Part shown: in pieces, positions 50,428-64,000 of the stretch
Layout of the letters: each line of letters starts with the position of its first letter
Position numbering within the stretch: position 1 is the stretch's first letter
Assembly: GCA_018466975.1 (NCBI GenBank)
Contig: CM031561.1
Span: 3,534,001-3,598,000 of the forward strand
Source: Sparassis latifolia
Taxonomy: Eukaryota; Basidiomycota; Agaricomycetes; Polyporales; Sparassidaceae
Direction: 5' to 3'
Length of the DNA: 64,000 nucleotides
The notes under the pieces: generated by a model
The model's input: only the letters and a program-made list of their open reading frames with translations
Databases searched by the model: none
Told to the model about the DNA's origin: nothing
Program-made: the position numbers and the translations under genes

Positions 50428-51862
50428 ATGGCTTTGACAAGCAAATGTGTTATACGCGAGGTCAGCAGACACCGTTTGCTGGATGTGCCCGACTGACGAT
50501 CGGCACTGACCTCATGTTCGTATTTCTCAGGTAGTGAAGGACGTCTGGACCTTTTCATGGTAAGTATAAGTACATCGAACTCAAGTTTTTCGACTTACGT
50601 TGTCTTGACAGTCCCTTTTCACGATTTGGTGTAATCCCATTTGGTGGGCGATCGACCGCCGTTAAACTCCACAACGGGGATGTGTGGTTGCTTGCATCAA
50701 CCCCGCTTGACGGTGAAACAAAGAGTAAGCTTGCTGAAATAGGCCCCGTCAAGTACGTGCTTCTCTGATTGTAAACCTGCTAATTATCTGATGCGAAGGA
50801 AGTACAGATGGATCATCGGAGCGGACAGGGTTCACTACCTCTACCTTGGTGAGTTCGAACTCTCAAAATAAGTACACATCTCTGCAGAAAGCACTTAGAA
50901 GTGTATGCATATCTACTTCTACTATTCCTTACGACAGCGACTGCTACACATTATCTCCAAACCCTTTTTTCTGGGACATACGGCTATATGACTTCTACCC
51001 GCTCGGTGTGACTACCGTACGTGATACAAAGTTAACGATTTGTTGTTCTTACAGCGGAGTTTAAGAAAGAATATCCCGACGCCAACCTCATAGCGGTGGA
51101 AGAGGTGAAGAACGCGAAGGAAAAGGAAGGACTAGAGTTCCATGGAGGCGAGTTGCTCTTTCATAGTTGGCTGCTGGTGATAACACTTGATATAGCATGG
51201 GGTGCTGATCCCCCTGATACGAAGTACGGATTTGAAGATGATGTGAGTTATAGCCTCAGTCTTCTGGTAAGAAACTAATTCAATGTGGGCGTCAGATTGA
51301 GCATTGGTGAGAGTTCAAACATAAGACTTGGTTCCGCCCACCCATAGCCAACAGTTACTTCTCCGGTCATATCAACAAGGATGTGGCTTTCTTCCATCCG
51401 GCTTCGAAGACCTTGATGGAAGCAGACCTCCTTTTCAATCTTCCGGCAATAGAACAGGCGAGTGATTGCACGAGTTCATTGCGTTGCATCTTCTCTCTGT
51501 TAACATAGCTGCTCTACAGTACTCTAAGACTGGGTCTTCTGGTCGGCTTCCGATCTTTGGCACGTTGAAGCCCGACACGTGGCTGCACAAGAAGTTTGCG
51601 TGGATGACAGGGCAGGATAAGGAGTGCGCAAAATTCTCTGTCTCATCGCTTTAACTAACGTTTATTCCGTGTCGCGTAGAGCCATGAAACGCGACGTGAA
51701 GACGGTTGCGGGGTGGAATTTCGAACGCATCATCCCTTGCCATGGTGTATGTACCTTGTTTCTTCTACTAACCGAAACTCACACCACAGGCGTTCTTAGG
51801 ACGTGATAGAGAAGGATGGAAATGCTGCCTGGAGACAGGCTTTCCAGTGGTATTTCGACTGA
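50428..51862 (+). CDS. DUF4336 family protein
   Basis: About seven short exons joined in frame. They give MALTSKCVIREVVKDVWTFS, RFGVIPFGGRSTAVKLHNGD, VWLLASTPLDGETKSKL, GADRVHYLYL, EFKKEYPDANLIAVEEV, YFSGHINKDVAFFHPASKTL and a C-terminus with RDVKTVAGWNFERIIPCHGD and WRQAFQWYFD. This is the layout of DUF4336 proteins, which resemble metallo-beta-lactamase folds (HxxF..., LLFNLPA, PCHGD) with altered metal ligands. Cytosolic; function not established. All joins are clean, so the gene appears active. Confidence 0.75.
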
Positions 51863-52314
51863 TTCGTTTTCAAGGACTCTTGGCTCGGACTGGCTCTGTT
51901 TGGCTTCTGTTGTATCAATATCGTATGGACTTGAATCCAGGTGTCACTTTTCAGCACTTGCGAGCGGCGTTTCCGTGCTGTCAGGATCGCCTGCCTGCTT
52001 CTTCGCCTGGCCTTGCGGATCTGGTCTGTTTTCAATGCAGGTGCCTCGCTTTCAACAGTTGTTCCCGATAACGTAATATGATTCCCAGCGATATACGTTA
52101 AAGGAGGGACGAGAAGGGCATGCCTTCCTGGCCATCTGTCCTGCGCGACGCTGTCATGCGCTGGTGCTGTTTGCCTACATCCTACATCTGGCATGCACGA
52201 AGCGCATCCTCGCGGAAACCACGAGGGACCCTGCCCGCCGTGCGGTATATCTGCAAACGCCCTGCTGGTTTATACCATTTCCCCTTTCTCTTTCGTCGAA
52301 GGCGCTCCATCACG
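51863..52314. other. Intergenic, promoter of RING copy 2
   Basis: 450 bp. Frames here overlap and are shadows. No gene is supported. The last part is CT-rich (CCCTTTCTCTTTCG) just before the next start. Confidence 0.4.
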
Positions 52315-54591
52315 ATGGTCTTTTGTGTTACTTGCGACAGGAGCTTCAATAGTTACGAGGCATACAGACAACACGCCCGAGACAAGAAGCATGAGTACAA
52401 ACCATACCAGTGCGACACTTGTGACGTGGGACACGCCACCCAGGATGATTTGAAAGGGCACTACCGCACTAGCGATGACCATCCCTCGTGCGCTCGATGT
52501 CCCGAAGCCTTCAAGGACCAGGCCCAACTTACCGCGGTATGTCATCCCTTGATTGCTGAGTAACGACACGTTATAAATGATGGTACCGTGGTAGCATATG
52601 ACGGCAATTCACTACATCAAGTGCAACCCATGCAACCTCACCTTCTACCGGGAAGACATTCAGCTGCACTTCAGAGAGTCGGCAAATCACCCCACATGCG
52701 TCGTGTGTGGTGATGGCTTTGAGACCGATGTTCTTCATCAGCAGGTAAGTCTACCAATGTCCACAAAGCGTACTGTGGTGAGATCTGTCAAGTGATTACT
52801 ACTGACGTACTGCCCGCGGCTTTTCCAGCACACGACATCAGCGCATACCGACACACGATGCGCACCCTGCAATCGACTCTTCCGCACCAAAGAATCTCTG
52901 CGGGATCATTACAGGGATTCTCCCGCACATCCGCACTGCGCTATCTGTGGAGTTGGATTCGAGAACGACGAGGCGTGCGATGCAGTGCGTATCGAGGTTC
53001 ATCACATACGACTTGCAATTTTTACTCTGTCCATACTGTTGTAGCATATGACGCAGAACCATCCTCCTCGGCGCGTCATAGCCTCACCACCTCCCAGCAT
53101 CCGAACGCAAGTTGAGGCTGTAAGCCCATTCTGTGACTTCACCAATTGGCGTTACGATTGACCCGCCTCTATGCTGACATAGATACAGGACGCCGATACC
53201 GTGTTGTCTGTTGCCACCACGCAGCTGCAGTCCTCGCAATCTCCTCCTCTCCAGCCGTGTGACGACAACAGCATAAGTCCTGATGAGCCGCAGTCCGTCC
53301 TTCACCAGAGCACAGTCAGTAGCCGACTCTTCATCATGCTCTTTGTACGATCACTAACCCCCCTTTTCCGACAGATGTCCGAGTATTCTCACAGCAGCGC
53401 GCTGCGTACGGTCTCGGAGCCAGCCTTGCCCTCTGCTTCCTCTCTCGGTGGGTTCACCAGTCTGCGATATCAGGAGATACGCTTACGGAGCCACGTAAGT
53501 AGTCGGGGGTAACTTCGCGAACCATGTGCCAGACAACAGACCAGCACCTGATGTATCGCCGCCCTCGCTCACCTGTGTCGAACAAGACGAGGCAAGTATA
53601 CCGGGTATCTCGTGCAACACGACTCCGATTATGTCTCAAAGGTCCCTAGAGTACACAGCAACAGGGAGCATCGCTACGCATCTGACGGGAAATCCAACAG
53701 CGTCTCCTGTATCTCAGGGTACCTTGGACTTTGTCTCGTAAGCACCGTTAGATTCACCTGAATACATCTCCTGACGAGAGTCTCAAGATTCCCGGGTTTG
53801 AGGGAAGAAAGTGCTCCCTCTGAGTCATCTATGTCGACGAGCTCTCTACACATGTCTGATCTAGTATCGGAGACCAAATCACCCGCATTCGAGGAAGCTT
53901 CTCCTACACCCTCTGTTCGACCTCTTCCGCTATACCACAATCCTAGTAGAGTGTCGCTCTCCCTTTCTGAGGCTCACCTGCGTGCAGCGTCTGAAGTGAA
54001 GGAGATTGTTACCGCTCGTCCAGAGCCTTTGATAAGCAGCGTCCTGGCCACTCCTTCGCATACCGTGTCAGGGCAAGACTTCGGCCAGATCAACACTAGC
54101 TTCAGTCCACTCGCGCAGGACCCCCATTCGAGGCCGGCCAGTACTCTGCCGTCTCCCCCACTTTCCCCAGGGAGCCGCCGTATGTCCGTCACGTCAGCTG
54201 CGTCTGTCCGCCGAGGTGAGCAGAATGTTTTCTTGCCGGAGACGCGCTCGTTGAGCCTTGCAGCACGGTCACGATTGGCGACATTGAGCGACACCGACGC
54301 TACCGTCCAGAATGTGCCCGCTTCAACCGAGCGTGCCCCCTCGGCGTCGCGAACTCCGAAGGGGCTCTCTTGGCATTGTCGGGTGTGTCTGAAGAACCCG
54401 TGCACGGAGCCTACTGCGACAATGTGTGGACACATATTCTGCCACAGGTGTGTGACCTCTCGTACCTTTGATGTCTACTGTGGGGTGACTCGTATGCTGG
54501 TAGTTGTATCATTAAGGAGATTGCAACGAATATGCAATGTCCTGTATGCAAGAAGTCCATGCTGTTAAGACTGCACGTCGAGACGGACTAG
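52315..54591 (+). CDS. C2H2 zinc-finger and C-terminal RING protein, copy 2
   Basis: The better-preserved paralogue of the gene at 41304-43439. Fingers: CVTCDRSFNSYEAYRQH, CDTCDVGHATQDDLKGHYRT, CARCPEAFKDQAQLTAHMTA, CNPCNLTFYREDIQLHFRES, CVVCGDGFETDVLHQQHTTS, CAPCNRLFRTKESLRDHYRD and CAICGVGFENDEACDAHMTQ. These alternate between an H-x6-H finger inside an exon and an H-x4-H finger split by an intron. Then come about 350 disordered Ser/Pro residues and the RING: WHCRVCLKNPCTEPTATMCG, HIFCH, CIIKEIATNMQCPVCKKSML. Probably a nuclear or cytosolic ubiquitin ligase. Start ATG gives MVFCVTCD. Exon joins in 53200-53790 are approximate. Confidence 0.7.
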
Positions 54592-55170
54592 AAATACGAT
54601 AGGTTTATCCTTTGTACTCGTTCGTCATTCGTCCTTAACCTAATGTTCGGTATAACCTGTAACACAATTACTGGAACACACCTCTGGTGTCCTACCTACT
54701 TATTATTCGTTCGACGTTCCGCACAATAACCGCTGTATGCATAAGCTACACGCGACGCGTGAATCACGCGGACGCGTAGTGGCCCTATGGACCTTCGTAA
54801 GACAGTGAACTCTCGCCTACTCTCGCCACGCACAGTATTATTAGATGGCCGGTCCGCTGCCAGTGAAGCGTCGAAGTTCTAAAGTGACTTATAAGTCACC
54901 CACGTGGATTTCTGAAGCGCTAGCGCTCTACGAGCCCTTGCTAAAACCTTGCGCAATACTCAATTTTATTCGTTAGCTGATGCGTGTCTCCACGCTCGCT
55001 CAGAGTCAATAATAAACGAACGCCGATTCACATCAACAACGAAATTCCTGTGGGATATGCTGTATTGACGTATCTTCGTCGTGTCTTCCAGGAAGTGGTA
55101 CCCGCAAACACTCGCATTAATTGCGGGAACATGCTGAGGTGGGCATGATTGAAGAACTTGAATAGATAGT
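54592..55170. other. Intergenic, no gene seen
   Basis: 580 bp of AT-richer sequence between the RING gene and the first kinase fragment. It includes AGTGACTTATAAGTCACCCA (54880), a perfect TGACTTATAAGTCA palindrome. No coding features. Confidence 0.45.
54881..54896. repeat. Perfect palindrome GTGACTTATAAGTCAC
   Basis: A 16-bp perfect palindrome centred on TTATAA. It could be a binding site for a dimeric factor, or the edge of an old element. It has no neighbouring start codon. Confidence 0.4.
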
Positions 55171-55560
55171 TTACAGTGAGGAGGGTCTGCTGAAGTGCTG
55201 AAGTGCCCCGATGTCGTACTCTGTAAGAAAGTAAGCCGATAGCCTATCGTCTAGTTCGCTTTCAAAGAGCCCGTGGCAGGCGGGGACGATGTCGCCTTGT
55301 ATCGGTTTGAGCTGACGGCGGTGGATGTCAACCTCGGAGCACAGCCTAGCGATAGGCTCAGAACCAGACACGGCCTTGCAGAGAGCCACTCTCAAATTAT
55401 CCAACGTAGCGCGACAGACAGTACAACGATCGCGGTGGAGGACTATTGCACCGTCGACAAGAGGTCGTACCCGGGGCCTCGACCGTCGGTGCGGGAGAGC
55501 TTGAAGGATTCGGAAGTAGAGCCGGGGGGAAGTGCGATAGTAGCGCAGTGATAGTCTCAA
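55171..55560 (-). pseudogene. Kinase-like gene fragment (K0)
   Basis: The frame keeps only the middle of the kinase-like family seen to the right: EVDIHRRQLKPIQGDIVPAC and HGLFESELDD align with EAEIYRQLRGLQRDVIPAC and YGLFEGELEE of copy K1. The N-terminal glycine loop is garbled and the half with the catalytic HGD and DFD motifs is missing. No partner nuclease gene remains beside it. I read it as a truncated, decaying copy at the left edge of the array. Confidence 0.7.
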
Positions 55561-55840
55561 ACGTATTCGCAGTTCGATGACATCCGAACAGCAGGAGGGC
55601 GCTTCCCGGAGACTTGGCAGACCTCTAAGCCCATGTAGCAGGGAAGGAGCTCCTCATACGAAAACGTGGCGAAGACGAGAAGCTCAGACTGAGCAAACAA
55701 ATGAGGGGTATGTTACAGAAAACCATACATAGATAATCAAGGTCGAGCGGACATAACATCGTGATCCTCACTAAGGAAGTTCAGTAGCAAAGTCAACAGA
55801 ACAAGAGACGGGTAGTACACACCACTCGTACAACGACAAG

Positions 55841-56805
55841 CTACGCAACCGTCCCTCCGCATGACCGTACCATAGGATTGCGATCCGCCCATTTCCCATA
55901 TCTGCGCTCGTAGCTTTCAATTACCAGACGTGCTTGCTCAAGTGCTTCTTCCTCGGGAACATCCGCAGGTGCGAGAGAGGCAAGCAGTTCGGGGCTCTCC
56001 AAGTACCCTACATGCGCATATCCGGTCAAATACCGCACCATGTCTAGAATCATGTTATTCTTGGCCATTGTTAGATATCACAGAAATGTACGCACTTGGT
56101 GTCCAGAGCTTGCAGTCAATACATATGCACCACAGCTCATCGCACCCGAATTTATGCCGACAGGGTTCTGTTACATCAAACATAATCGGTTTGTGGCAGA
56201 GACACTGGTGCCTCTCCGCGCGGTCGAAGTCGATGATCGTCGGCTGCCGGTTCTGATAGAGAACAACATTGCATTCTCTGAAATCGCCATGCTGTACACC
56301 AGCTGCGTGTATCTCCGTCAAGGCGTCAACGAGGTGAATCCTGAGATAAAATTGTAATTAGTCAAGTCAAAGGTATCAACTAAAAAAGAGCTACAAACCT
56401 CAATTGTAGATCGAGGCAATCAAAAGTGGTATCCAGTGTTTTTCCGCAGTATTCTGTGACCAGGCAAGCCGACGGTCCTTCTTCTAACTCTCCTTCGAAG
56501 AGACCATAGCATGCAGGGATCACGTCGCGCTGTAGTCCGCGGAGTTGTCGGTATATTTCCGCTTCGTGGCGAAGCCTCGCAATTTTTCGCTTTCCAAACA
56601 CAACCTTGCAGACGACGTCCTCGGAGCGGTGCCCTTCACATGCCAGTGAGGCACGATAAACTTGTGAATGACCATCGTGAATCTGCTTGGTATTACTGAT
56701 GACGAACTTTAGCCCCGCGCCGGGAATATCAGTGCGGGACATTTCGTAGATATTTGGAGAATCGCAGTGCGAATGCTGGTCGGGGAAGTGGAGAGTGGTG
56801 ACCAT
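55841..56805 (-). CDS. Kinase-like protein K1 of the tandem array
   Basis: Three exons, about 285 residues. Order of motifs: a glycine-loop-like HDGHSQVYRASL, VVCKVVFGK (lysine of strand 3), RHEAEIYRQL (helix C Glu), ACLVTEYCG (hinge), AAGVQHGDFRECNVVLYQN (catalytic HGD and Asn), PTIIDFDRAERHQC (metal-binding DFD) and a Cys-rich patch FGCDELWCICIDC. The C-terminal 70 residues are helical (LESPELLASLAPADVPEEEA). This is the compact layout of protein-kinase-like/aminoglycoside-phosphotransferase-like folds, with all active-site residues present. No membrane segment. Divergent from the nuclease-like gene N1 across a 389-bp promoter. The family has no functional name that I can give. Confidence 0.75.
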
Positions 56806-57194
56806 GGTGGTGAAAAAGCTGATAGAGTGCTGGACAAGCGGGAATGAACCATTTTATGTAAGTTACGCGCGTGTGGCTGGGCACGTGCTCACGCGGCTCA
56901 AGAAACCAATACTTACCTCGCGCGATGCTTCAGCCACTCGGCCTTGCAAACCTTGGACGTTCGGACAATAAGTTCCCCGCATTTTAACAATAGAATTCCC
57001 ACGTGCGAACAATGATGCCGCTCTCCCTTGTGCATAAATAGTATCTGCACTCATGCGTCGATCATCAAGCCATGAGCATTCAATAATGAACTTTCCCATT
57101 CCGGCAATGTACAAGGCCATTCTCCGTAGTGTTGTGGCCATTGAATATATAAGGTGAGTTGGATCGATCCTCTCAGACAGCTTCCGTTTCCAAC
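56806..57194. promoter_or_regulatory. Divergent K1/N1 promoter
   Basis: 389 bp between the two start codons. TATATAAGG at 57146-57154 lies 49 bp before the N1 ATG. On the minus side, ATGTAAGTTACGCG and GGCACGTGCTCACG near 56856-56895 precede K1 and are kept nearly unchanged in the K2/N2 promoter. CACGTG is an E-box. Confidence 0.6.
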
Positions 57195-58777
57195 ATGTCT
57201 TCCACACCTCCAAACTCACCCTCTCCGTTGAGCATCGCGCTTGAGGTAGAACTGCCAGTGACACCAAAGAGGAGGCACCGCCTTATCTTTCCGGTTGAAT
57301 CACCTCGAACTACAGACGACGATGACACACCTCGCCCGAAGCATCTGAGTCGCGCTGAATTGCTGGATTTCGAGGATCCCAATACTCCTACACCTGCACG
57401 TCGTTCTACCCATCGTCCAAAATATGAAGCCCACGAAGAAGGGACACAATCTCCTTCAGAATCTTCCAGCACTTCTACCTCAGAGCAAGGCGAGTCAAGC
57501 GATTCGGCCCGGTCCAACGTTCCTGGTCGCAGAAAGGACTGGGTGTTGCCTTTGCCGTTTGACCCCCCGAGCGCTGCAGACATCCACTCATTGCATGATC
57601 TACTCCGAGTGACGCTGCCAGAGAATCCTCCACCATACCGTGACGGTGCCCTGACGGGAATGAAAACAGTGACAGAACATGAGTTCGCAATCAGTGCCGA
57701 AGCTCCTCTCAAGAAAGTGGTGTATGTACCGGACCTGGTCACACAGCTTCGCGATCAAGCTGAGAAGCAACTCAGCAATCTCAAAATTGACATGGACACA
57801 CTGAATCCAGACTTATTGTCTGTTTGCCAGATGCATCCTTACCTCACTGCAAGGAACCTACCCCAAAAAATCCACAGCGAAAAAGACACTGAAGACTGGT
57901 GCAATGCCGTTCTATTCAGACCGGCGCTCGCTGCCTTACGCTGTGTCATTGCAAAGAAGATCATCCACAACTTTGAATTCAAATATCCTTACATATCGTC
58001 AGCACCAGGTCGTAAAGTTATTCCAGACGGAATCCTCGTCAGGAAGAATACCTTATTCCATCAAGAGTCGGATTCAGATTTCTGGTACATAAAAGACGGA
58101 AAGGTCATCCTCACGATTGAGGTCAAGACGCAGCCTGCGTGGGAGAAGATGCGTTTCGAAAAGCTTCAGGCTCTTCCTATCCATTTTGAGAAAGGAACTG
58201 CTATGCGTTTCGTTTGGCCGACGAGGGAAGACAAACCGGACGAGCAAACACGATTGCTTGTACAGGTACGACTTTCGTTTAGCTCGGCCGTCGATAACAC
58301 CTTACTCGTTTTCCTACTTACAGGCGTGGACACATATAGTGAAGTCAGTGCACGGCATCGAGATCCTTTCGACTCTACACTTGACTACATTCCTGGTGCG
58401 AGGGCGAAACGAAGATAACAGTGATACGCTCTATATTTCGCCCAGCTATGATCGTGAGTCATGCCCGATCTACGCAGTCTACTGTTGGTTTGCCCTGGCG
58501 ATGGGTGTCATAAATTTCGAGAGCCTGAATCTCCCTTCTCCGATCACCACTCGCTGGCCCGATGGGGCAATGGATGAATATCAAGAATCTTGCGGAATCT
58601 TGCCAGCGTAAGTGCAAATTTCTCGGCCTTACCATATATCGCGTTTATATTGATACGTGTAGAACGCAATACGACGCGTACGAGCTTTCTGCAACTCCCA
58701 ACGTTAATACCCGTGGGCGCGCCGCTACTGGTAAGACGACACGATCTAGGAGACCTGCGGCTTTCGAAGCACTGTAG
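57195..58777 (+). CDS. PD-(D/E)XK nuclease-like protein N1 of the tandem array
   Basis: Three exons (57195-58265, 58324-58607, 58663-58777). The N-terminal 130 residues are disordered and acidic/Pro-rich, with ELPVTPKRRHR. Then come IHSLHDLLRVTLPENPPPYR, VVYVPDLVTQLRDQAEKQL, KDTEDWCNAVLFRPALAALR and the nuclease core: VIPDGIL, a turn of about 20 residues, and VILTIEVKTQPAWEKM. The D of PDG and the E and K of EVK fit the metal site of the PD-(D/E)XK fold. A C-terminal domain follows with SPSYDRESCPIYAVYCWFAL, then a basic tail (TGKTTRSRRPAAFEAL), possibly nuclear. The fold call is from motif and context, not alignment. Paired with K1. Confidence 0.7.
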
Positions 58778-59469
58778 TTCAGCCGCCGATTGCTACTACA
58801 TCGTCCTGTTTCGGTCCCAGTGTTTTTAATATAAATGGCTTGCGCTGACTTCAACGCAATGCTGAAACCGTTTGACACACTCCTCATACCGGAAGTGTCC
58901 TGAAGTCCTCAGGCTTCCGCTTGATCTCGTCAAACATAGAGAACTTGGCACCCAAGGGCAGCACGGCTCAAAAGTGTAGGAGTTTCGTTCGAACCCCTTT
59001 CGAGGACAAGCACTTCTCCTCCGCCACTCCGCTCATAAGATTGTCTTCCATGTCACTGGCGTCCGTGCGCGCGTCCTTGTCGGATGTCATTACAAGGTGT
59101 GGCTCAGGTCACATAATATTCTGAAGCAATATACTGTATGTAGTTGTAATGAGGGTGCAAGTTCTTCCAAACGACGGTCTTGAAATATCTGTGTGTCCCA
59201 TCAAATCCATATGCAACCTAACAGATAGTATCTCGAATAGGCTGTAGAACGATCACGGTTACCACATTAATTGCTAAGTATGAAGTCGTACTGGGGGCAC
59301 CCGAGGGACAACTCCTTCACCTGATTCTGATATGCGAAGTCGCGAGTCCTAGAGCCACGAGGTGTCAAGAAAAGTTGTGAACATGAAGAAAGGTCTATTG
59401 TGGGTATAACTCCAGAATCCGCAAACCAGAGAGTAGGGTAGTAGGGTCGACAGAAGACGAAGCTAAGGA
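58778..59469 (-). pseudogene. Relic of a third gene, unit 1
   Basis: Between the N1 stop and the K2 stop. The block at 58935-59110 aligns with 62655-62820 in the next unit (ACCCAAGGGCA, GCTTCTCC or ACTTCTCC, CATTACAAGG or CATTGCAAGG, TGGCTCAGG). On the minus strand the second unit reads a protein-like stretch there, while this copy is interrupted by stops. A former third gene of the cassette, broken here. Confidence 0.5.
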
Positions 59470-60468
59470 TTACACAACGTTCTTGCGACAAGCTCCGGAA
59501 CTATGCAATCGACCCTCCTCATCAACGTACCACGGGATGGGATTACGATTCGCCCATTTTCCATATACGCGCTCATACCGTTCAATGGCTACGTGTGCTT
59601 GCTTGAGCGCCTCCTCCTCGGGGACATCCTCCGGTGCTACAGAGGCGAGTATTTCGGGACTCTCCAAGTACCGTACATGCACATGTCCGCTCAAGTACCG
59701 TACCATGACTGGAATCATGTCATTGTCAGTCATTGTTGGGTCATACAGAGATGTACGCACTTGGTGTCCAGACATTGCAAGTATGACAAATTCGCCACAG
59801 TTCATTGCATCCAAACTCATCCTGGTACGGTTCCGTCACCCCCAGCGTGATCGGCATTGGATGGAGACACTGGTGCTTCGCTGCACGGTCAAAGTCGATG
59901 ATCGTTGGTTGCAGGTTCTGGTAGAGAACAACATTGCATTCACTGATATCACCATGCTGTACACCAGCTGCGTGAATCTTCGTGAAGGCTTCAATGACGC
60001 GAATCCTGTGATAAGATATCGGTTTAGTCTAGGCATATAAGAGCTCGAAAGAATTGGATACCTCAATTGTGAGTCACTTCTCTTGAAGCTCTTATCCAGC
60101 GTTTCTCCGCAATATTCTGTGACCAGGCAAGCCGACGGTCCATCTTCCAACTCTCCCTCGAATAGCCCGTAGCATCCAGGGATCACGTCGCGCTGTAGTC
60201 TGCGGAGTTGTCGGTATATTTCAGCTTCATTGCGAAGCCTCGCTATGCCACGCTTCCCAAAGACAACCTTGCAGACGACGTCCTCGGCGGGGTACCCTTC
60301 ACAAGTCAATGAGGCGTGATAGACTTGTGAGTGACCATCGTGAATCCGCTTGGTATTACGGATGACGAACTTCAGGCCCACACCAGGAATGTCAGTGCGG
60401 GACATTTCATAGAGTTCGGGATGGTCACAGTGCGAATGCTGGTCGGGGAAGTGTAGAGTGGTGACCAT
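59470..60468 (-). CDS. Kinase-like protein K2 of the tandem array
   Basis: Same three-exon structure as K1. Motifs: HDGHSQVYHASL, VVCKVVFGKRGIARLRNEAE, ACLVTEYCGETL, AAGVQHGDISECNVVLYQN, PTIIDFDRAAKHQC and the acidic C-terminal helix APEDVPEEEALKQAHVAIE. Unlike K1 it has a longer C-terminus (WYVDEEGRLHSSGACRKNVV). The active-site residues are complete, so it is probably functional. The Cys-rich patch of K1 is altered to FGCNELWRICHTC. The second intron begins GTGCGT as in K1. Its partner is N2. Confidence 0.78.
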
Positions 60469-60884
60469 GATGGACGGACAAGCAGAGGAAATGCTAGACA
60501 AGTCGAAATGAACCAATTTATGTAAGTTACGCGTGTGTGGCTGTGCACGTGCTCATGTGTCCTCTGGCCCAGCGCTAGCGTCTCCGCCGCCTGACAATGC
60601 AGCCGCAGTGACTTGAGGCTTGAGCCACTGGGCCTTGGCATTCGGACAATGACATTCCCCCATTTGAACAATGGAATTCCCCCATGTGAGCAATACTGAT
60701 ACCGCTCTCCATTATGTCTCGGTATGAGTTATATCGGCACTACGATCATTAATAGGCGGTAAAGAATGAGCCTTCCCGTTCCGGAAACCTGGCAATTCTC
60801 CATCGTACAGTGGCCAGTGTATATATATAAGGTGAGTTATAGCTTGGTTTTACTGTAGACCCTCGTGCGACTTTTGTTTTGAAC
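60469..60884. promoter_or_regulatory. Divergent K2/N2 promoter
   Basis: 416 bp, alignable to the K1/N1 promoter over its whole length (TTATGTAAGTTACGCG, GTGCACGTGCTCA, TATATAAGG at 60824-60832). It carries a small extra block around 60560-60660. N2 starts 61 bp after the TATA. Confidence 0.6.
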
Positions 60885-62487
60885 ATGTCTTCGCCGTCAC
60901 CGTCCACACCTCCAGACTCCCCTCCAGCGTTCAATACTGCTTTCCAGGGAGAGTTACCTGTGACCCCTCTCAGGAGGTACAAAGATATCCCTGCGGCACA
61001 TTTGCTCTTCACGGACGACGACGACAACGACGATGACGACAACGACACACCTCGGGCCAAAATGCTCGGCTCGCGCGCCTCATTGCTTGTTGTTGATGAT
61101 CCACAGACTCCCACCCCTGTGGGTCGTTCTTCCACCCGTTACCGAAAGAAAGCCGATGATACGACGGCGCAACCGACTTTGGATCCCTCCCCTAATGCTG
61201 ATATTGACTGTGGAGATGTTCCATGTGACGACAATTCGACCCACAGCGCGAATGATTGGGTATCACCATTGCCTTTAGTAGCTCCCAGCTCCGAATCTGC
61301 CGGGATCCACTCGCTGCATGATCTACTCCGAGTGACACTACCAGAGAACCCCCCACCGTATCGCAACTCTGCGCTGAAAGGCATGAAGACTATAACAAAG
61401 AACGAGTTGGCGATTAGCCACGTAGCTCAGCTCAAGAAAGTAGTTTATGTGGAGGACCTGGTCACACAACTTCGCGACCAAGCTGAGAAGCAGCTCAGGA
61501 ATCTCAAGCTTGACGGGAATGTACTGGATCCAGATGTATTCTGCATTTGCCAGATCCACCCTTACCTCACTGGAAATAATTTACCCCGGAAGATCCACAG
61601 TGAAAAAGATACAGAGGATTGGTGTAATGCCGTTCTATTCAGACCGGCCCTTGCCGCCTTGCGCTGTGTCATAGCGAAGAAGATCATTCACAACTTTGAA
61701 GGCGAATTTCCTTACATCTCATCGGCCCCAGGTCGTGAAGTTATTCCAGATGGAATACTTGTCGAGGAACGTACCGTTCACATTCAAGAGCCTGGTTCAA
61801 GCTTCTGGAACATACAGGACGGAAAGGTAATTCTTACAATCGAGGTCAAAACCCAGCCGGCCTGGGAGAAGATGGACTTCCACGAGCTTCAGACTCGTCC
61901 AGTGTATCTTCAGAGAGGGACAGCGATGCGTTTTGTCTGGCCAACTGAGGATGACAAAAATCCAGATGAGCAAACAAGGTTGCTTGTACAGGTGAGGTTT
62001 TTGTTTGTGTCAGGAGCCGACATGATCTGATTCGTTTTTCTACCTACAGGCGTGGACTCACATGGTGAAGTCAGTGCACGGCATCGAGATTCTTTCCACT
62101 TTACACTTGACTACATTCTTGGTGCGAGGCCGAAATGAAGATAACAGCGACACACTGTACATTTCGCCGAGCTATGATCGTGAATCATGCCCGATCTATG
62201 CAGTTTACTGCTGGTTTGCCTTGGCAAGGGGTATCATAAGTTTCGAGAGCTTGAACCTCCCTGCTCCCATCACGGCTCAATGGCCCAAATCGGCCCACGA
62301 TGAATATCATGAGACTTGCGGGATATTGGCTGCGTGAGTGTCAAGTTCCCTCTCTCAGTTGATAACTCGCATTGATATTGATGTATGTAGAACACGATAC
62401 AACCGCTGTGGACCTCCTGTGACTCCCACTATTGCCCGTGGTGTGGCCACACGATCTCAGGGACCTGCAGTTTTCGGAGCACTATAG
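60885..62487 (+). CDS. PD-(D/E)XK nuclease-like protein N2 of the tandem array
   Basis: The copy of N1, with the same three exons. The N-terminus is disordered and has diverged (SPSPSTPPDSPPAFNTAFQ, then ELPVTPLRRY and an Asp/Asn-rich run DDDDNDDDDND). The folded parts are nearly the same: IHSLHDLLRVTLPENPPPYR, KDTEDWCNAVLFRPALAALR, APGREVIPDGIL, VILTIEVKTQPAWEKM and SPSYDRESCPIYAVYCWFAL. The catalytic D, E and K are kept. The C-terminus ends RSQGPAVFGAL. A strong match of the core against a free N-terminus indicates selection on the core. Located just upstream of K2 on the opposite strand. Confidence 0.72.
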
Positions 62488-63087: not shown

Positions 63088-64000
63088 TTATGTACCATTT
63101 TTGTGACAAGCTCTTGAACTATGTAATGGATCCTCCTCGTCAACGTACCACGGGATAGGATTACGATCCGCCCATTTCCCATATATGCGCTTGTACTGTT
63201 CAACCACCATATGTGCATGCTTGAGTGCCTCCTTGTTGGGTACATCCACAGGTGTCACAGAGGCAAGTAATGCAGGGCTCTCCGAGTACCGTACATGCAC
63301 ATATCCGCTGAAGTATCGCACCATGTCTGGAACTACATCATTGTCAATCGTCGCTCAATTAAGGAAACGCACACACTTGGGGTCCAAACGTCGCAGTCAA
63401 GGCATATTTGATAGAATTCAATACATCCAAACTTATTCCGAGAGGGTTCTGCCACATCGAACAGGATCAGTCGCGGGTAGAGACACTCGTGCCTCTCCGA
63501 GCGGTCGAAGTCAATGATCGTCCGTTGCTGATTTTGATGTAGAACGACCTTGTATTCCCTGATGTTACCATGCTGCATGTGAGCGAATCTTTGCTAATGC
63601 TTCAATGATGTCTATCTTGAAAAAAGGGAGCAGAATACTAGATTAATCAAGGCAAAGGTATTGACAAAAATAGAACTAGTTACCTCAGTTGTACATCAAC
63701 GCAGTCAAAGCTCATCTCCAGCATATTTCCGCAGTACTCTGGGACCTCCTTCGAAGAGACCGTAGCATCCAGGGATCACGTCGCGCAGTAATTTGCGAAT
63801 TTGAAGGTATATTTCAGCTTCCTGTCGAAGCCTCGCTATCTTCCCAAATGCAACCTTGCAGACGACGTCCTCTGCGGGGTACCCTTCACAAGTCAATGAA
63901 GCGAAGTAGACGACTTGGGAGTAGCCAGTGTAAATCTGCTTGGTCTTACCGATGACAAACTTTAGCCCCGCGCCGGGAATATCAGTGCGGGACATTCGGG
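63088..64000 (-). pseudogene. Kinase-like copy K3, decayed and cut by the window edge
   Basis: Third copy of the kinase-like family. The C-terminal part is intact (ESPALLASVTPVDVPNKEAL). The N-terminal part reads MSRTDIPGAGLKFVIG and EDVVCKVAFGKIARLRQEAE, so two residues are lost after FGK. A deletion of about 30 bp removes the hinge after GLFEG and shifts the frame, and a second break lies before the catalytic loop. That loop reads MQHGNIREYKVVL instead of HGD...N, so both the catalytic Asp and the Asn are gone. The 5' start and any partner nuclease lie beyond the right edge of the window. Confidence 0.75.

Follow-up and report, generated by a model that had tools for sequence, protein, structure and literature searches.

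A divergent kinase and nuclease-like gene pair in a mushroom genome as a candidate two-gene poison-antidote module

Organization of the two units

The window analyzed here is a 64,000-nucleotide stretch of contig CM031561.1 (C10:3534001-3598000) from a genome of 41.4 Mb in 22 contigs. It contains two complete units, K1/N1 and K2/N2, each composed of a gene for a small protein kinase (K) and a gene for a PD-(D/E)XK nuclease-like protein (N). The two units fill window positions 55841-62487 exactly, and the outer limits of the spliced models coincide with those given in the original prediction, which had been made from the DNA letters and their open reading frames. The four models have two GT-AG introns apiece and no internal stop, with intron positions that correspond between the units. 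As predicted, the HGDxxxxN and DFD motifs are intact in K1 and K2, as is PDG...EVK in N1 and N2.

K1 (284 amino acids) occupies 56805-55841 on the minus strand (introns 56398-56341 and 56095-56044), its spliced model retaining the catalytic residues, and N1 (489 amino acids) occupies 57195-58777 on the plus strand (introns 58266-58323 and 58608-58662). In the second unit, K2 (296 amino acids) is at 60468-59470 on the minus strand (introns 60061-60006 and 59760-59709), and N2 (495 amino acids) is at 60885-62487 on the plus strand (introns 61992-62049 and 62334-62390). The genes had been described as facing each other, which is the wrong word: they are divergent, back to back, with start-to-start gaps of 389 bp (K1/N1) and 416 bp (K2/N2). 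K1 and K2 are 76% identical at the protein level, and N1 and N2 ~65%. The predicted period of 3.62 kb was close, but the measured distances are 3663 bp from K start to K start and 3690 bp from N start to N start, and repeat spacings across the tandem array range from 3587 to 3726 bp.

The divergent intergenic regions (56806-57194 in K1/N1 and 60469-60884 in K2/N2) contain the conserved promoter that had been expected between the genes. A 76-bp core (56816-56891 and 60480-60555) is 84% identical between the units, while synonymous sites of K1 and K2 have a divergence (dS) of 0.62. CACGTG palindromes are located at 56882 and 57000 in the first region and at 60546 in the second. This motif occurs between K and N in all three pairs on C10 but in just one of the six other pairs, and the E-box is thus a feature of C10; a common E-box promoter for all pairs was rejected.

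The kinase

K has a kinase fold in which the catalytic lysine, the C-helix glutamate, HxD...N, and DFx are present. It belongs to the protein kinase superfamily, in agreement with the prediction of a kinase-like gene. K1 scores above the Pfam cut-offs for APH and Kdo. RNase L and IRE1 are among the fold matches of the K model, in a list in which all kinases score alike. Assignment of K to the FunK1 kind (PF17667), in contrast, was not supported. The curated cut-off for this family is 24.1 bits, whereas K2 reaches only 16.8 bits and K1 is not among the matches; five of 12 K members have FunK1 matches with E values no higher than 0.1, the lowest being 0.00032. FunK1 is itself abundant in the genome, with at least 135 matched stretches (107 of 208 candidates scored), and no listed stretch falls at a K/N locus.

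Following DFD, a set of H-x-C, C, and W residues (amino acids 180-215 of K1 and equivalents) is conserved in 12 of 12 aligned kinases and in 11 of 11 database kinases. These residues form a possible metal or disulfide site.

The nuclease-like protein

The signature residues of N1 are E229, P277-D278, E309-x-K311, and Q357. This PD-(D/E)XK signature (E, PD, ExK, and Q, in that order) is kept in all nine genomic copies of N, and E, PD, and ExK are also found in nine of nine database relatives, three of which are from S. crispa. The predicted N core has a fitting order of elements and may have the alpha-beta-beta-beta-alpha-beta arrangement of PD-(D/E)XK nucleases. Family searches returned no family match for N, and no significant Foldseek match names it. 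The prediction of a nuclease-like gene is therefore supported by signature and predicted element order, but not by a family or significant Foldseek match. The conserved glutamine that follows ExK reads QxWxx; QxxxY strings occur in four N copies, but never at that glutamine.

Wider searches were negative. No credible match to phage, defence, or NCBI family libraries emerged for seven N members, the scan having covered those other than the two with frameshifts. A second protein-database search with the N profile (7995 candidates scored) found none beyond the nine known proteins, and 66 pattern matches in viral contigs included 0 true relatives by tblastn. The best match of the N profile to PDB sequences was REV1 (E, 0.23), which we do not believe. 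Common ancestry of N and K was rejected at hhalign probabilities of 0.05-0.2%. The idea of K/N as a split FunK1 was likewise unsupported, with an hhalign probability of ~0.1% between N and exon 1 of a FunK1 protein encoded in this genome. This comparison is an insensitive one, as K, which shares the kinase fold, scored just ~1% against the same exon.

Pairing across the genome and in other species

Nine N loci were found in the genome, and the same nine were recovered with three different N queries. Three are on C10, four on C14, and one each on C4 and C7. Splice-aware alignment showed that a divergent K lies upstream at all nine, 300-1026 bp from the aligned N start. By a hand estimate (38 K matches in 41.4 Mb), the chance of encountering such a K at a random place is ~0.0005. 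The nine loci are not independent, although they are spread over four contigs and diverge by up to 70% (down to ~30% identity). Homologues of the window genes thus do occur as pairs, and the K/N pair is a real unit rather than a product of local chance.

The K and N distance matrices for the nine pairs, with the two frameshifted N copies included, are closely correlated (Mantel r, 0.96; 0 of 20,000 label permutations). This agreement indicates that the two genes have been inherited together. Pairwise ratios of nonsynonymous to synonymous divergence (dN/dS) of 0.25 for K1/K2, 0.23 for N1/N2, and 0.17 for the N core indicate that both K and N are under purifying selection.

Close relatives exist in S. 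crispa, for which a genome of 39.0 Mb has been published (PMC6207663) and from which the S. crispa proteins presumably stem. SCP_1501080 matches K2 at 99% identity, SCP_1501090 matches N1 at 97% over 260 amino acids, and a "predicted protein" (P0012) matches N2 at 98%. The tags SCP_1501080 and SCP_1501090 look consecutive, and the kinase and nuclease-like genes are therefore probably neighbors in the deposited S. crispa genome. The three S. crispa N proteins are annotated as "predicted," "hypothetical," or "uncharacterized." Among S. latifolia database entries, the listed N and K relatives both report a longest contig of 240,541 bp, and the A. lapponica entries include one N relative (of two) and one K relative (of four) that both report a longest contig of 102,633 bp. 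Linkage of K and N is probable in both. In Fomitopsis serialis and one other source, an N relative stands alone among the matches listed, the K search having been made with a single sequence.

Kinases without a nuclease-like neighbor

The relationship between K and N is lopsided. Nine of 35 modelled K loci or fragments adjoin an N, and 26 stand alone. No N without a K was seen among the nine N copies, and no N remnant was detected near the 26 lone K at E 0.05 in the regions examined. The K total is a lower bound, since a K match at C7:2813338-2813565 is not among the 35 models and one more K-like piece (C4, plus strand, near 2833.9 kb) appears only in the repeat search. Relics and fragments are among the 26 lone K, of which 15 reach 200 amino acids.

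Paired kinases are better preserved than lone ones. All nine paired K have an intact kinase core (K, E, D, D), as compared with 15 of 26 lone K (Fisher one-sided p, 0.019), a difference that is favored by the short fragments among the latter. For cores that are both intact and lesion-free, p is 0.007 if the pair at C14:783.6 kb is penalized for a stop in its K, and 0.0007 otherwise; this single stop was taken, by eye, for a natural end. When the comparison is limited to K of at least 200 amino acids, lesions are absent from seven of eight paired and six of 15 lone models. Nine of the lone K combine freedom from lesions with an intact core, and in two of the nine pairs N carries frameshifts while the core residues of K are retained. 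On the K tree, the events by which N was gained or lost are no more clustered than in shuffles (three K models shorter than 140 amino acids left out).

These numbers bear on whether linkage reflects any common function. K could be a lineage-specific kinase family, one early copy of which gained a nuclease neighbor before the block was duplicated in tandem. K does far outnumber N, the units do lie in tandem arrays, and block duplication accounts for the codivergence of the two genes. Such passive linkage is nonetheless unlikely in our judgment. Pairs on four contigs have persisted down to identities of ~30%, and S. latifolia and A. lapponica entries probably represent pairs as well, even though lone K are common, and intact kinase cores go with the presence of N.

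Two decayed kinases flank the units within the window. K3 (63097-64000 on the minus strand, running on to 64048 past the window end), the kinase of a third unit, is a relic with three frameshifts and one stop, beside which no N was found. K0 (54984-55505 on the minus strand) is a partial, decayed kinase remnant. Outside C10, a second cluster, larger than that in the window, lies at C14:777501-815500 (loci L034-L037) and comprises four pairs together with several kinases that are either lone or relics. One K in it, at C14 806.4 kb, is a near copy of its neighbors, yet has no N.

A segmental copy that lacks N

The left flank of the units and K1 (50968-56827) are duplicated at C10:3496001-3501877 with 96.3% identity. 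This segmental duplication spans at least 5.9 kb, its left limit being the end of the DNA examined, and lies ~89 kb away on the same contig; K0 is also found in it, near C10:3500 kb. The match stops just beyond the K start, such that K is intact and N absent, the 2.3 kb holding N being missing. K is followed in the copy first by an inverted 71-bp promoter piece, then by a small part of the K1/N1 spacer, and finally by the neighboring kinase. The inverted piece of the divergent promoter is at C10:3501872-3502090 (L025), where N is missing. The N-less K of the copy has a dN/dS of 0.19 relative to K1, a pairwise value that does not describe that branch alone. The two N-less kinases of the copy have sister sequences in S. 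latifolia entries (P0002 and P0003), and those at C10:3496-3502 kb therefore seem to predate the species split. The duplicated left flank also contains an open frame (window 53762-54568) with a RING-finger-like stretch (C..C...H..C, by eye).

A recent copy of this kind, together with the presence of pairs on four contigs, might suggest that K/N is the cargo or relic of a mobile element that spreads the unit. We consider this very improbable. No inverted repeats of at least 14 bp frame the single C7 pair (one 14-bp pair adjoins it; shorter ones were not sought), no transposase frame was recognized by eye within the two units, and the copies are mostly in local arrays.

Comparison with known nuclease/kinase systems

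The closest parallel is to SPOK of Podospora and FuSpok of Fusarium, in which a PD-(D/E)XK nuclease and a eukaryotic-like kinase form one module, with multiple copies and antidote-only versions (PMC6660238, PMC12693581); K/N would match them in these respects. Killing by SPOK3 lies with its nuclease and protection with its kinase, and the two activities are separable by mutation: K240A in the SPOK nuclease abolishes killing with resistance kept, and D667A in the kinase yields a protein that is toxic if wild type is lacking (PMC6660238). When its kinase is dead, SPOK1 disrupts DNA in both E. coli and yeast (PMC9972908). Some Fusarium SPOK homologues behave likewise, and antidote-only versions have been reported or predicted in SPOK and wtf (PMC12693581).

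Judged by published motifs and architecture rather than by direct sequence comparison, the K/N pair is not a SPOK. SPOK is a single protein composed of coiled coil, nuclease, and kinase, whereas K and N are two genes with separate starts and stops, one on each strand. The SPOK cluster C-x3-C-x13-C-x5-H-x7-H, which is located by the kinase (PMC6660238), has an exact spacing that is absent from all 44 K and N models and the four window proteins. SPOK has QxxxY at the conserved glutamine, as against QxWxx in N. In addition, K/N occurs in a basidiomycete and SPOK in ascomycetes.

FunK1 offers a partial likeness. The original prediction stated that FunK1 kinases are often linked or fused to decayed PD-(D/E)XK domains, and one FunK1 locus of this genome, at C8:2912 kb, indeed has a PDFIL...FIEVK stretch (by eye) before the kinase part. 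FunK1 differs from K/N in being fused in one protein, with K1 and K2 falling under the family cut-off and similarity to N being undetectable in the insensitive test described above. In CR-type (Crinkler-like) effectors, nuclease and kinase domains are in the same protein, whereas K and N are separate genes. These effectors share with K/N the partnership of a restriction endonuclease (REase)-like nuclease and a kinase, which is described across domains of life (PMC12693581). Neurospora Sk-2 and Sk-3 resemble K/N, by description only, in having killing and resistance on separate genes (PMC9972908), but are not described there as a nuclease/kinase pair. Among the best-ranked open-access literature, no title points to a mushroom spore killer or to a comparable pairing of kinase and nuclease genes, which is weak evidence of novelty.

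Discussion

The K/N unit may be a two-gene poison-antidote module with N as poison and K as antidote, a reading that we hold to be evenly poised between right and wrong. It builds on the gene structure, kinase fold, nuclease signature, adjacency of K to every N, joint divergence, purifying selection, and K-only copies described above. N appears to be lost more readily, and K is also kept alone, which is why N is read as the poison and K as the antidote. With a poison about, an antidote is indispensable and antidote-only copies are useful. The original prediction of a conflict or toxin-antidote-like module accordingly fits the K-only copies and the lack of N-only copies, but it is still conjectural. 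As a whole, that prediction is borne out in part: genome-wide pairing strengthens it, while FunK1 membership is not supported.

In such a module, N would be an active PD-(D/E)XK nuclease that damages nucleic acid, most likely DNA, and its target would be its own cell or a nucleus sharing the same cytoplasm. K would be a small active kinase, transcribed divergently from a common short promoter, and would restrain N by phosphorylating either N or the target of N. A nucleus or spore would survive if it received both genes, or just K, and would be exposed to N made before separation if it received neither. The outcome could be drive in meiosis or in heterokaryons. Basidiospores might be the arena in a mushroom, or else the dikaryon, whose cytoplasm is long shared by two kinds of nuclei.

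The same anatomy, with its common promoter, joint divergence, and retention of both active sites, would also suit a defence or self/non-self pair, in which K is an activator or sensor that switches N on against foreign nucleic acid, transposons, or an incompatible partner. Kinase-controlled nucleases exist, and RNase L and IRE1 are among the fold matches of K, though their scores resemble those of the other kinases in that list. It is hard to see what use an activator would have on its own, however, and yet nine lone K are lesion-free with intact cores. Furthermore, the N-less K of the segmental copy has a pairwise dN/dS of 0.19 relative to K1, its closest relative is an S. latifolia entry, and two of the nine N are frameshifted beside a core-intact K. 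We thus think it improbable that K is an activator of N.

The poison-antidote reading can be carried further, tentatively and with more doubt, to a selfish mushroom system in which SPOK logic is split over a divergent pair, with arrays of independent specificities, surplus antidote-only kinases, and biased nuclear inheritance in spores or the dikaryon. K/N would be a variant of the nuclease/kinase conflict systems, having two genes instead of one protein, and its proposed mechanism is plausible, with an even chance of holding. How a single SPOK protein both kills and protects is described as an open puzzle (PMC6660238, PMC9972908, and PMC12693581). If the reading is true, the two activities reside on two genes, and poison and antidote could be separately expressed, tagged, and titrated in a natural system.

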